DNA from: Nitrospirales bacterium
GTDB lineage: Bacteria; Nitrospirota; Nitrospiria; Nitrospirales; UBA8639
Direction: 5' to 3'
Assembly (NCBI GenBank): GCA_029261355.1
Contig: JAJDBM010000070.1
Coordinates: 124,001-188,000 of the forward strand
Length of the DNA stretch: 64,000 nt
Under the pieces are notes generated by a model that saw nothing but the letters and a program-made list of their open reading frames with translations, had not been told where the DNA came from and made no database searches. Shown one piece after another: positions 9,997 through 15,965 of the stretch (the stretch's first letter is position 1; the number at the start of each line of letters is the position of its first letter). The translations under genes and the position numbers were made by a program.

Positions 9997-10226
9997 CAAT
10001 GGAAGAACCGTCAGGATTTGAGCAGGTGACACGCGCCCGCGTTGATGGGATGTGTGACGATATCAGACATATACGACAGGACATGGACGCCTTTAGTAAG
10101 GATCTACGAGAAATCATTCATGTCCATGGCAATCGTTTACCGAACTGGGGCGCGACTATTTTTGCTGGAATGTGTACTACAATGGGGGCAATGGCGATGT
10201 GGATAATTAGTCATGTAGCGCATTAA
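9993..10226 (+). CDS. Small membrane protein with coiled coil, XhlA-like layout
   Basis: 77 residues. An amphipathic, heptad-like helix (about 5-50, with repeated D/R/I spacing such as ICDDIRHIRQDMDAF-type content) leads into a C-terminal membrane helix (about 52-74: GATIFAGMCTTMGAMAMWII). This is the layout of haemolysin XhlA-like and other small phage membrane proteins, though sequence identity cannot be claimed. The start overlaps the preceding 56-residue gene in ATGA, so the pair is expressed together. A phage-derived or mobile origin is plausible because the next few kilobases are repeat-rich and end at a recombinase beside a tRNA. Confidence 0.55.
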   Translation: MTMEEPSGFEQVTRARVDGMCDDIRHIRQDMDAFSKDLREIIHVHGNRLPNWGATIFAGMCTTMGAMAMWIISHVAH

Positions 10227-10315
10227 GGGGGCGACGCAGGATTCGGGAATTATCCTACGCTAAGCTCCAGGTAATGGCCTTAGATCGCGGCATTGCCTGG
10301 GTTTTATCTTACGAA

Positions 10316-10427
10316 GCTGGTCGCTGTCCCAGTTGATCTATAGTCTAAATAGGACAACAATGGGGCCTGTAAAACAAGGCGTTGCGGGCCACCTTTTCGG
10401 AGAGGTTCAATTGGGACAGCGACCAGC
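10316..10427. mobile_element. 112-bp inverted-repeat element, MITE-like
   Basis: Two 21-bp arms (10316-10336 and 10407-10427) are inverted copies of each other with one mismatch; the first 16 bases, gctggtcgctgtccca, are perfect. The 70-base core has no gene. The size and terminal inverted repeats fit a miniature non-autonomous transposable element or a REP-type element. I see no clear target-site duplication flanking it. Confidence 0.6.
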
Positions 10428-10462
10428 CATCTCTTGCCGGGTAATCGAACGCCTCATGTTTC

Positions 10463-10531
10463 TCGATAGCGGACGTTCTTGAGCGCCCCGCAGACGGCCT
10501 CTACCTGTCTGCAGTCGGCCAAGAGCGGTCA
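10463..10531. repeat. Repeat R1, copy a, of the PEP-CTERM cassette
   Basis: A 69-bp segment that recurs at 11899-11967 with only two differences. It contains the internal palindrome-like stretch gcagacggcctctacctgtc. It lies about 110 bp upstream of repeat R2 in both cassette copies. Confidence 0.85.
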
Positions 10532-10642
10532 CCCCACAGGTATCCGATCGTCATCATGCCTTGACGCAGGGCTGCCCCCAAGACACGGCGTCCAGCATAT
10601 CTCCCTTTCGTAGCAAGACCTGACTCTCAGTTCACTCAAACC

Positions 10643-10684
10643 GACAAATACCCCTTATTTGGGGTTATACAAGCAGGCTGACAA
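10643..10684 (+). promoter_or_regulatory. Repeat R2, copy a: palindromic upstream element
   Basis: A 42-bp element shared with 12076-12117 (37 of 42 identical). Its core, taccccttatttggggtta, is an imperfect palindrome. The TACCCCT half-site fits the NarL/LuxR-type heptamer TACYYMT. It lies upstream of both PEP-CTERM genes and is probably an operator or activator site; the DNA-binding protein is not in the window. Confidence 0.5.
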
Positions 10685-10860
10685 ACCGGTATGCTTCCAC
10701 CGACTTTCGATGGTTACAATGGACAACATCCAATAAACACAAGAGTCGCATCCTACCCAACCACGGACGGTTCGGGAGAATCTTATCACCAGCACACGGA
10801 CAGGACCGGACGTCCTTTCTCAGCAGCGTTCATATCGAAACAAGATAATGAGGATTGATC

Positions 10861-11046
10861 ATGTTACAATCAACGGGAAGAGGATGGAACCCCATGACCC
10901 ACATAAGGGGTTTGGGTTTAACCGCTATGATGCTGCCGCACTTAGCCTTCGGGTCACCGATCAATACATCCGAGGGCGGGGGCGACTACGGTAACTCCAA
11001 TGGCGCAAGGACCACCTGCGGTCAAGCGTTGGCCATCACGAGATGA
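10861..11046 (+). CDS. Small secreted-like ORF, 61 residues
   Basis: The frame begins at an ATG preceded by tgaggattg, a weak Shine-Dalgarno sequence. It encodes a possible signal sequence around residues 12-31 (MTHIRGLGLTAMMLPHLAFG), followed by a Gly/Ser/Asn-rich tail. It lies between the R2 regulatory element and the first PEP-CTERM gene and has no counterpart in the second cassette. It may be a small exported peptide or the 5' remnant of a longer exported protein. Not recognised; expression unproven. Confidence 0.35.
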   Translation: MLQSTGRGWNPMTHIRGLGLTAMMLPHLAFGSPINTSEGGGDYGNSNGARTTCGQALAITR

Positions 11047-11105
11047 GGTTAAACATCGGAGCACCACACTCTCTTCAAACTTTAGTCAATTATTCAGGAG
11101 GCATC

Positions 11106-11633
11106 ATGAACCGTCTACGACGCCACAACATAACGATCCCCCTCGCCGCCGTCGTGTTGGGATGGTTTCTGTTTATCCCTTCGCCGAGTTGGGCCGCCCC
11201 CGCCCTGCTTGGGCCCGGAGATTACAGGTTCGATTCGGGAGATTTATTCGGAGGGACTTTTACGATTGACGGTTCCGGCGAGTTCAGTGAGTGGAACATC
11301 ACGTTTCCCGCGACAGAGTTTTCCCCACTCAGGAAGTTTCAATCTCCCACGCCCGGTATCATCACACTGGGATTGTCATTCGAAAATGTGTGGCTCCTTA
11401 GCGGTTTGGATATTAAGTACGAAATTGACACAAGAGTAGTATTTCCCGGGCAGCCAAGGACGTATAAATACTTGATTCAGTCTTTCATAGACCCGTTCCC
11501 CGCGGTAGGCGGGGTTGGGAACGTCACCGCAGTCCCAGCACCATCGAGTTTCCTCTTGTCGGCAACCGGCCTCCTAGGCCTCGCCGGCTATCGGTGGCAC
11601 CATCGGCGACATGAGCGCGCCCAAGTCGGGTAA
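11106..11633 (+). CDS. PEP-CTERM-type secreted protein, first copy
   Basis: The start is the ATG six bases after AGGAGG; 63 bases of open frame upstream are not used. The 175-residue product has a signal peptide (residues 1 to about 30, ending in SWA), a beta-rich middle, and a C-terminal sorting signal: VPAPSS, a hydrophobic stretch with GLLGLAGYRW, and a basic tail (HHRRHER). That tripartite tail is the PEP-CTERM signal, with VPAP replacing VPEP, which an exosortase cleaves at the inner membrane for surface or biofilm-matrix delivery. No exosortase is encoded in the window. It shares N- and C-terminal ends with the gene at 12226, while the middle differs. Confidence 0.8.
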   Translation: MNRLRRHNITIPLAAVVLGWFLFIPSPSWAAPALLGPGDYRFDSGDLFGGTFTIDGSGEFSEWNITFPATEFSPLRKFQSPTPGIITLGLSFENVWLLSGLDIKYEIDTRVVFPGQPRTYKYLIQSFIDPFPAVGGVGNVTAVPAPSSFLLSATGLLGLAGYRWHHRRHERAQVG

Positions 11634-11644
11634 CCCGCCTTCGG

Positions 11645-11845
11645 CCCATCGCCACCACCGGGACACGTACACACCAAGCGCCGAAGATTGTGATGGTCTT
11701 CGGCGTTCTTGCTCATAAAGCCGGCGCACCCGTGTCACACTCATCATAACTCATTCAAACCCTCCTCTCCACACGTAGCTCACCAGTCAATAGTCTTTGG
11801 ACTAAAAGATCCGCTTGGCAACCAGTTTCCAACTTGAATGCAATC
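11645..11845. repeat. Repeat R3, copy a, of the PEP-CTERM cassette
   Basis: About 200 bp directly downstream of the first PEP-CTERM gene that recur, highly similar, at 12831-13030 downstream of the second. The block includes a hairpin terminator. Together with R1 and R2 it shows that a whole gene cassette, not just the coding region, was duplicated. Confidence 0.88.
11679..11710 (+). terminator. Hairpin terminator after first PEP-CTERM gene
   Basis: A perfect 9-bp stem (cgccgaaga at 11679-11687 with tcttcggcg at 11697-11705) has a 9-base loop and is followed by ttctt. The T-run is weak, so it may be inefficient. It is conserved in the second cassette. Confidence 0.6.
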
Positions 11846-11898
11846 TTGTACTTCACATATTGAACTGACCTAGTTGTGACCCGCATGTCCGCTGTGGG

Positions 11899-11967
11899 TC
11901 GATAGCGGACGTTCTTGAGCGTCCCGCAGACGGCCTCTACCTGTCTGCAGTCGGCCAAAAGCGGTCA
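11899..11967. repeat. Repeat R1, copy b, of the PEP-CTERM cassette
   Basis: Second copy of the 69-bp repeat described at 10463, with 67 of 69 positions identical. It marks the left edge of the second cassette unit. Confidence 0.85.
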
Positions 11968-12075
11968 TTGAATTGCACCAAAAAAATGAAATCCCCCTAG
12001 GGCGTTAGGACCACCTCATGTGCGATATGGATTTTTCAGGAACGAAAACTCACCTATGCCGGTTTAACCCAACCA

Positions 12076-12117
12076 GACAAATACCCCTTATTAGGGGCTA
12101 TACTAGCAGCCGGACAA
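12076..12117 (+). promoter_or_regulatory. Repeat R2, copy b: palindromic upstream element
   Basis: Second copy of the R2 element. Here the palindrome reads taccccttattaggggcta, so the two half-sites TACCCCT and AGGGGCTA are closer to perfect symmetry than in copy a. It lies about 110 bp before the second PEP-CTERM gene. Confidence 0.5.
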
Positions 12118-12225
12118 TCAGCTACGATCCCGCAATATTTCGCATGTTTTAAATAGAAATCGATTTCATCCAAAGCATTATAACCCAACCAGCGGATATG
12201 CGACTGAAAGGCAAGAATAAACCCC

Positions 12226-12819
12226 ATGACTTACACAAAATCAACATTCATTCCACTTGCGGCTGTCGTGTTTCTCGTCTGTTCCAGCGTCCAGGCCCAT
12301 GCCGCGTTAATTTACAACATATCGCAATCCGCATTTAACGGCCCCAGTTCCGTATCCGGAACTATTGAGACAGATGGGACCATAGGGGCCATTAATGCCG
12401 TGAATGTACTGAGCTGGGCGTTCACCCTCGATGACGGGGTAGGGACCGTAGTTAGTTTGTCCAGCACAAACGGCACGCTGGACCTCGCGGGGAGGACATC
12501 CACCGGATTCTTCGCGACTCAGACCGAGGTCACGTTCCCGTTCTCAGGCAACCACCTCACGTCATTCAATAGTGGTGTGAAGTACTTGGCGTTTGATGGC
12601 AGTCTCAGTGAGTCGCGCGTAATAAGACCGGACTTTACTGGCATGAATTGGAATGTCGGGGGAAGAAAGTGGATCAAGAGGATGAGCGGCTCTCAGGTGG
12701 TCGGCACAGCAAGCACGGTACCGGCACCAACCTCGATGCTCTTGATGGGTTCCGGCCTCCTCGGCCTAGCTGGCTATCGGTGGTCGCAGCGTCGACGTGA
12801 GGGGACTCAACTCGAGTAG
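12226..12819 (+). CDS. PEP-CTERM-type secreted protein, second copy
   Basis: The 197-residue protein has a signal peptide (1 to about 26, ending AHA), a beta-rich body with many Ser/Thr/Gly, and a C-terminal VPAPTS motif, a hydrophobic helix with GLLGLAGYRW and a basic SQRRRE tail. It therefore carries the same exosortase-type sorting signal as the gene at 11106. The N-terminal IPLAAVV and the last 30 residues are nearly shared between the two, but the central domains differ markedly. This pattern suggests duplication followed by rapid divergence, or replacement, of the displayed domain. The Shine-Dalgarno sequence (gaaaggcaag) is further from the start than usual. Function of the body unknown. 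Confidence 0.8.
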   Translation: MTYTKSTFIPLAAVVFLVCSSVQAHAALIYNISQSAFNGPSSVSGTIETDGTIGAINAVNVLSWAFTLDDGVGTVVSLSSTNGTLDLAGRTSTGFFATQTEVTFPFSGNHLTSFNSGVKYLAFDGSLSESRVIRPDFTGMNWNVGGRKWIKRMSGSQVVGTASTVPAPTSMLLMGSGLLGLAGYRWSQRRREGTQLE

Positions 12820-12830
12820 TCCGCCTGCCG

Positions 12831-13030
12831 CCCATCGCCACCACCGGGACACGTAGACCCCAAGTGCCGAAGATCGTGATGGTCTTCGGCGTTCTTGCTC
12901 ATGAAGCTGGCGTATCCGTGTCATCCCCATCATAACTCATTCGAACCCTCCTCTCCACACGTAGCTCACCAGTCAAAGTCTTTGGACTAAAAGATCAGCT
13001 TGGTAACCAGTTTCCAACTTGCATGCAATC
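12831..13030. repeat. Repeat R3, copy b, of the PEP-CTERM cassette
   Basis: Second copy of the 200-bp downstream block. The matching continues beyond it: tgtccgctgtgggtcga, found at 11887-11903, recurs at 13130-13146 after an extra stretch of about 75 bases. The copy includes the conserved hairpin. Confidence 0.88.
12866..12895 (+). terminator. Hairpin terminator after second PEP-CTERM gene
   Basis: An 8-bp stem (gccgaaga at 12866-12873 with tcttcggc at 12883-12890) around a 9-base loop, followed by gttctt. The loop differs from the first copy by one base while the stem is conserved. Confidence 0.6.
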
Positions 13031-13318
13031 ATTCACTTCATATGAAGAAGGCAGGTTGTGACAACATCGTAAGAGATAACGGCATCACGCACCGTTGCTA
13101 AAATTGAACTTGACCGATTGGGACCTGAATGTCCGCTGTGGGTCGACTTGCGACCAATCAGTTCTATTGCTTGCAGCGTCCGCTTTGGCTGTAAAAACCC
13201 TTAGCGTACGATAATTCCCTAATCCTCAATCGTCCCCATTAAAAATATGGAGGAAGGCAATAGCTTTATTGTAGCGACCGGATACGAGGGGAGACGAACC
13301 AGTGTGTCAGCAAAATTT

Positions 13319-15093: not shown

Positions 15094-15954
15094 TTGGCGG
15101 TGGTGGGGGAAACAAATCCGACAACCCTAACCCCCTGGGTTTTGAGATGTGTGGAGTTTTTTTCCCGCGATACCTTTCTTAGAGAGTGTTTTGTGTTGAT
15201 GCGTATCCTGAATTTTGCGGTTGATTATGACTTACTCGATAAGAATCGGTTGAAGGTGATTACGATTGAGAAGGGTATCAGACGGGAGAGGGTAATCAGT
15301 GAGGATGAATATTCGGCCTTGCAAGTGGCGGCATCTCTTCAGTTGTGGAGGTTGATGTTGCTGGTGCTAAATACAGGTTTACGGGAATCCGTATTACTGT
15401 CAGTAGCATTGAACTGGATCAGGGCGTATGAGGACGGGTGGTGGTTGAGCCTTCCGAAAGCTCGAACGACGTTTAAGGCACATGCCCCACGAATTCCATT
15501 GAATGCAGCAGCCTTGGCGGCACTCGTTCCGTAGAGTGAGCCGATGGTGAGTGGAAGAATATTTAGTACGTGGAATGATCGAAGCTCAGTGACATCGGCA
15601 TGGAGAAGGGCCATTCAGAAAACGAGCATTCACGATTTGAAATTTCACGATTTGCGACATTCATTTGTGACGCGGCTACAGAATTTTGGTGTTGATTATG
15701 AGGTGCGCCAATGGCTAGCAGACCACAAAATGAAAGGATCAACTCAGGGGTATTCTCATGGTGGTCCAGGATGGGATGCGAAGCTACGGGACGCAGTCGA
15801 AAAACTGAATGTGTCCTATGGTCTGTCCTATGGAGATTCTATACCTGAGGGTCGAGGGGAAGGTGAGGTCACAAAGGGGTTGAATTTATTGGTGCCGAGG
15901 GACAGAATCGAACTGTCGACACCAGCCTTTTCAGGGCTGTGCTCTGCCAACTGA
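15094..15954 (+). pseudogene. Tyrosine recombinase (phage integrase) interrupted by one in-frame stop
   Basis: A single frame encodes a phage integrase catalytic domain, broken by one TAG at 15532-15534. Before the stop lie part of the core-binding domain (MRILNFAVDYDLLDKNRLK) and the first catalytic Arg in NTGLRES. After it, in the same frame, come HDLRHSF (His-x-x-Arg), a conserved His in LADHK and the nucleophile Tyr in TQGYSH. The N-terminal arm-binding part is missing: the frame opens only after 15072. The reading frame runs on into the antisense of tRNA-Phe, a common sign of integration at a tRNA 3' end. Probably inactive unless the stop is suppressed or is a sequencing error. Confidence 0.85.
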
Positions 15955-15965
15955 GCTACCTCGGC
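15890..15965 (-). tRNA. tRNA-Phe (GAA)
   Basis: The minus strand folds as a standard 76-base tRNA: acceptor GCCGAGG paired with CCTCGGC, D-arm GCTC...GAGC, anticodon stem CAGCC/GGCTG around loop CTGAAAA (anticodon GAA, Phe), T-arm with TTCGATT, discriminator A and an encoded CCA. Its 3' end faces the recombinase remnant, so it is the probable integration site of the island to its left. Confidence 0.95.

Follow-up and report, generated by a model that had tools for sequence, protein, structure and literature searches.

How do two neighbouring genes come to be embedded in closely similar DNA while the proteins that they encode are largely dissimilar? This question is raised by a locus in a 64,000-nucleotide stretch of the genome of a Nitrospirales bacterium (the window), where two PEP-CTERM genes lie in tandem. 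Close relatives differ strongly in their PEP-CTERM repertoires, and the origin of such a pair bears on how surface proteins are gained. An earlier note on this DNA described repeats R1, R2 and R3 around each gene and proposed that the cassette is a slot for surface proteins. The explanation that we hold to be highly probable is that the locus is a Tn3-type mobile insertion cassette in which two PEP-CTERM cassettes that had diverged earlier were joined, their bodies having been exchanged by recombination.

A Tn3-family element around the doubled block

The doubling of R1, R2 and R3 at offsets of 1436, 1433 and 1186 was recovered in a repeat scan, and the repeats are real. The unit that contains them is larger than had been thought: inverted repeats of 38 nt (10227-10264 and 13200-13237) enclose the doubled block, and the whole of it is the cargo of a transposon. 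The ends and the backbone comprise the following features.

10222..10226, no strand: left target-site duplication ATTAA, identical in sequence to 13238-13242
10227..10264, plus strand: 38-bp terminal inverted repeat on the left, of the Tn3 family, which matches at 37/38 positions the end of the element in G040:C215 that bears tnpA and tnpR
10265..10322, minus strand: remnant of the tnpA 3' end, 58 bp; 10224-10319 is 91.7% identical to 8115-8020 of locus L173 (G040)
10325..10410, no strand: intergenic region between tnpA and tnpR, retained and presumed to be the res site; 10325-10453 shares 91.5% identity with 5114-4986 of L173
10411..10443, plus strand: tnpR remnant, first 11 codons (LGQRPAISCRV, against LGQRAAIYCRV in TnpR of L173)
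13200..13237, minus strand: right Tn3-family terminal inverted repeat, 38 bp, inverted-repeat partner of 10227-10264
13238..13242, no strand: right target-site duplication ATTAA (sequence)

The terminal repeats have the form of Tn3-family ends, reading GGGG...TACGCTAAG (about 38 bp, GGGG...TAAG). Twelve occurrences were found by pattern scan in 6 of the 49 family genomes, against none with the reversed pattern as a control, and the window genome (G000) has a single pair. Insertion took place where the upstream ORF has its stop codon and created a perfect 5-bp duplication, with ATTAA on both sides of 10227-13237. In a genome of another genus (G040:C215) the same end bounds an element with intact tnpA and tnpR, whose TnpA (985 aa) matches NF033527 with 1208 bits and whose divergent resolvase gene has a product of 210 aa. 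A copy at G048:C7 has the same tnpA deletion as the window element together with another cargo gene, and the right end of the window element is 88-92% identical to the ends of the G022 and G048 members. Passenger genes are present between the ends and transposition enzymes are absent. Because of the ends, the ATTAA duplication, the backbone remnants and the right-end match to relatives, we conclude that 10227-13237 is, on sequence grounds, a 3,011-bp internally deleted, non-autonomous Tn3-family element with passenger genes. As tnpA and tnpR are deleted, its movement would depend on a transposase acting in trans. In the window genome no transposase gene with matching ends was found, the Tn3 TnpA encoded there being only 27.6% identical to that of G040, and an empty insertion site was found in none of the 48 relatives.

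Tn3-family mobile insertion cassettes (MICs), for example in Xanthomonas, carry passenger genes between long Tn3-type inverted repeats without transposition enzymes (PMC6304161). The window element resembles them in all these respects, and differs in its host, a member of the Nitrospirales, and in a cargo that consists of two PEP-CTERM cassettes and is bounded by palindromic boxes. TIMEs and TIME-COMPs likewise have Tn3-related ends, 5-bp duplications and a retained resolution region, and need a transposase in trans (PMC13367494), features that the window element shares, its res-like region being retained and its dependence in trans being the presumed one. TIMEs are miniature, however, typically of 50-500 bp, and a TIME-COMP has a TIME at either end (PMC13367494), whereas the window has one 3-kb transposon with an internal deletion.

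The relatives carry varied cargo. In the G040 element a secreted protein of 968 aa, containing thrombospondin type 3 repeats, is encoded immediately downstream of tnpR (L173, 1065-3971). The cargo of a Tn3 relative in G022:C58 (L159, 498-5800) includes an HTH protein, an IrrE-like peptidase, a CoiA-like protein and an ATPase, and could be a defence or stress module.

Two PEP-CTERM cassettes and their proteins

Each cassette is made up of a leader with the R2 palindrome, a PEP-CTERM gene and the R3 terminator hairpin, and the element carries two of them, with boundary boxes on either side and in between.

10463..10531, plus strand: R1 copy 1, partial boundary box (3' part), which follows tnpR in related Tn3 elements (repeat scan, comparison with relatives)
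10532..10790, plus strand: cassette 1 leader with R2, having an identity of 94% to G038:C87 (over 156 nt) and of 83% to G038:C46
10639..10684, plus strand: R2 palindrome AAATACCCCTTATTTGGGGTTATAC and flank, probable operator or promoter element (repeat and motif scans)
10895..11046, plus strand: 50-codon ORF, likely the orphaned signal peptide or start of a displaced PEP-CTERM gene (it resembles the N-terminal part of the G038:C87 cargo)
11106..11633, plus strand: PEP-CTERM protein 1, 175 aa, PAP-type motif (ORF, domain search, tail)
11638..11720, plus strand: R3 of cassette 1, covarying terminator hairpin at about 11677-11707 (hairpin covariation)
11721..11858, plus strand: 3' extension of cassette 1, common to cassette 2 and to contig end C13 of the window genome (sequence comparison)
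11884..11969, plus strand: complete 86-nt imperfect-palindrome box between the cassettes, containing R1 copy 2 (11899-11967) (box comparison, folding)
12064..12142, plus strand: R2 region of cassette 2 (repeat scan)
12226..12819, plus strand: PEP-CTERM protein 2, 197 aa (Pfam PEP-CTERM 24.7 bits, cut-off 20.7)
12824..12906, plus strand: R3 of cassette 2, terminator hairpin at about 12863-12893 (hairpin covariation)
12907..13043, plus strand: 3' extension of cassette 2 (repeat scan)
13127..13190, plus strand: partial boundary box (5' part) adjoining the right terminal repeat, 88-92% identical to the ends of other family members

The two gene products have the PEP-CTERM hallmarks (signal peptide, C-terminal motif, hydrophobic stretch and basic cluster; the signal peptides were judged by eye), protein 1 scoring 19.7 bits with the Pfam profile, slightly under the cut-off of 20.7. 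Their C-terminal 38 residues are 61% identical and their signal-peptide regions match weakly (E 0.026). The bodies have no reliable similarity in sequence comparison and did not match in a comparison of profiles, which were thin; the predicted folds (mean pLDDT 42 and 39) are too poor to exclude distant homology. The view that the flanks are alike and the centres divergent thus stands for the flanks (75-97% identity) and the sorting tails, and for the signal peptides the likeness is weak. Two PF09721 matches in the window genome represent exosortases, which would be expected to process both proteins.

R2 lies inside a 79-nt pair starting at 10631 and 12064 (75% identity, offset 1433), and outside R2 the leaders of the two cassettes do not align. 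The palindrome has the same position in every leader. It occurs in two copies in the window genome and in four in G038, a Nitrospirales MAG (OFTM76) of another genus of the same family, and in no other of the 49 family genomes, which rules out a widespread motif. In the GTDB species collection, which may omit the window genome, only the G038 genome contained it, and viral sequences gave no match. Its placement suggests that it acts as an operator. A LuxR-type regulator beside one G038 array, next to a PEP-CTERM cassette (L092, 2042-2935; G038:C87), is a candidate partner of the palindrome.

The tail and R3 form a second pair (11513-11790 and 12699-12976; 278 nt, 81%, offset 1186), which continues for 67 nt at 90% and extends over 306 nt at 86% when gaps are allowed. 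In the R3 terminator hairpin 96% of cells are paired and 7 of the 11 pairs have compensatory changes; the hairpin accounts for the conservation of R3, and recombination is not needed to explain it.

The sections of Haft 2006 (PMC1569441) consulted here describe PEP-CTERM/exosortase proteins as single-gene units with a long upstream non-coding region containing a common motif, a modular tail and little homology between bodies. The window cassettes share the single-gene units, the upstream motif, the modular tail and the dissimilar bodies, and differ from that description in that the R2 palindrome is not its proteobacterial sigma-54/PrsR motif pair. Carriage of PEP-CTERM genes by transposons was not found in those sections.

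Tandem units with other cargo, for which the earlier note proposed a search of relatives, were indeed found in G038, where one contig has three cassettes in a row and a second contig has further ones. They share leader, R2, sorting tail and R3 with those of the window, and their bodies differ. The gene of the first cassette in one G038 locus (L091, 2702-3207) seems frameshifted, and the arrays may contain dead units.

Boundary boxes and the order of events

The R1 pair (10463-10531 and 11899-11967; 69 nt, 97% identity, offset 1436) had been taken for a component of the PEP-CTERM cassette. This had to be abandoned, since elsewhere R1 follows the tnpR stop codon or a tnpR remnant (in G022, G048, G040, G038 and at another locus of the window genome), with other cargo. 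Judging by these neighbours, R1 is a piece of the Tn3 backbone, situated directly after tnpR at the cargo boundary. A related box lies immediately inside the opposite transposon end at eight loci, and the boxes mark cargo boundaries, because the DNA beyond them varies between the members aligned. The left and right partial boxes of the window correspond to the 3' and 5' parts of the complete box between the cassettes, which folds as a hairpin (z -3.45), and the tetranucleotide TCGA is common to the three junctions. A 44-nt pair (11859-11902 and 13103-13146), unnoticed in the first reading, shows that the repeat unit stops at TCGA. A search of plasmids for the box gave nothing beyond short, chance-like matches, viruses yielded no match and the literature nothing relevant; a related Tn3 on a Roseibium plasmid has tnpA and tnpR without boxes. 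The palindromic cargo-boundary boxes point to an undescribed family. A small element with ends GGCTGTGTGAAAACTC lies repeatedly inside the boundary box, as if targeting it (L105/L002 at contig end G000:C13, and L158, L174, L175 and L178).

The R1 copies differ at 2 of 69 sites and the 3' regions at about 44 of 306 (Fisher p 0.007), so that the doubling of R1 seems to postdate the cassettes. On the assumption that R1 is neutral, the cassettes had already diverged when the boxes were doubled, and a union of two pre-existing cassettes is then favoured over duplication in place; conversion or selection could instead have produced the 97% identity of R1. The cassettes probably diverged before they became neighbours. 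The cargo slot extends from the box after tnpR to the box beside the other end and contains both cassettes, each with its leader and palindromic control element, one gene for a secreted protein with an exosortase sorting tail, and a terminator; the two would have been joined at TCGA within the boundary boxes.

Different parts of one unit have different histories. Cassette 1 has a leader nearest to G038, its 3' flank and that of cassette 2 are mutual closest relatives (83% over 330 nt), and the bodies match different relatives, so that the units are mosaic. The first unit also contains, as had been noted, about 250 bp of additional DNA between R2 and the gene, with the small ORF 10895-11046. 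In its start region this ORF agrees with gene 2 (AACCCCATGAC), and only 1 of 5000 shuffles aligned equally well with the start of the G038:C87 cargo. The match is short, and is suggestive of a leftover of a displaced PEP-CTERM gene. Since the flanks are mosaic and such a gene start seems to be left over, we infer that recombination has moved bodies between conserved leaders and tails or onto them. The proposed slot thus gains partial support from the tandem units of G038, the mosaic flanks and the apparently displaced start, with the amendment that the vehicle is a Tn3 mobile insertion cassette and that R1 lies outside the cassette; in-place swapping of the displayed domain by recombination in the flanks would be its putative mechanism.

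Simple tandem duplication of a single PEP-CTERM gene, with subsequent rapid divergence of the mature protein while function kept the promoter, sorting tail and terminator, would fit a middle junction shaped like a duplication join, with its 4-bp microhomology, the close kinship of the two 3' flanks and the structural selection on R3. It would leave bodies without usable similarity between non-coding flanks that are 75-97% alike, and both the body (38% over 58 aa) and the leader (94% over 156 nt) of cassette 1 match G038 and not cassette 2, while the body of cassette 2 resembles another protein family, present in four other genomes. We therefore regard such a duplication as unlikely. The joining of diverged cassettes within a Tn3 mobile insertion cassette remains our preferred reading; it suggests a mobile-cassette mode of spread and reshuffling for PEP-CTERM genes. 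The locus also shows that elements of this type can carry genes for surface proteins, and it offers a concrete, testable route by which Nitrospirales could gain and reshuffle such proteins.

Box arrays elsewhere and the comparison with integrons

Integron gene cassettes are single genes separated by co-oriented imperfect palindromes of variable length. The boxes of the window type are likewise co-oriented imperfect palindromes between genes. Nitrospirales Tn3-type transposons might accordingly carry an attC-like system, in which hairpin boxes of 86-118 nt delimit single-gene cassettes, many of them PEP-CTERM, that are captured successively beside the resolvase gene and stacked; if true, it would let surface proteins move and recombine as modular units. 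Boxes stand co-oriented in arrays, with one or few genes between them, also in G041:C17 and G000:C21, their ends are conserved and their middles variable, their hairpins fold with z from -3.45 to -1.32, and such insertion would leave the partial-full-partial pattern of the window. However, the boxes end in AATGTCCGCT...AGCGGACATT (by inspection) and lack the attC cores RYYYAAC/GTTRRRY, they adjoin a Tn3 serine resolvase, and no dedicated or integron integrase was found beside them. Full boxes number just five, no circular or empty form was seen, and homologous or illegitimate recombination between boxes yields the same picture. We consider a site-specific system of this kind quite improbable, and the Tn3 mobile insertion cassette with recombining flanks preferable. 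A draft assembly in 74 contigs, two of which (C13 and C21) terminate within or close to related repeats, could have faked the tandem order by misjoining or breaking at dispersed repeats, but the array lies within a 194-kb contig between matching ATTAA duplications, its two units differ at many sites and G038 independently has tandem cassettes, which makes an artefact most improbable.

In G041:C17 (L206, 8135-13473) five co-oriented boxes separate genes that include two for PEP-CTERM proteins and, as judged by eye, one for an Mrr-like protein. A second array of the window genome, in G000:C21 (L221, 1193-6954), has three PEP-CTERM genes and is interrupted by two transposase-like genes. The sole integrase near the window element is of phage type and split into two ORFs (15094-15534 and 15544-15954) that overlap a tRNA-Phe gene (15890-15965, minus strand); this region (15094-15965) is probably the scar of an integrated element.
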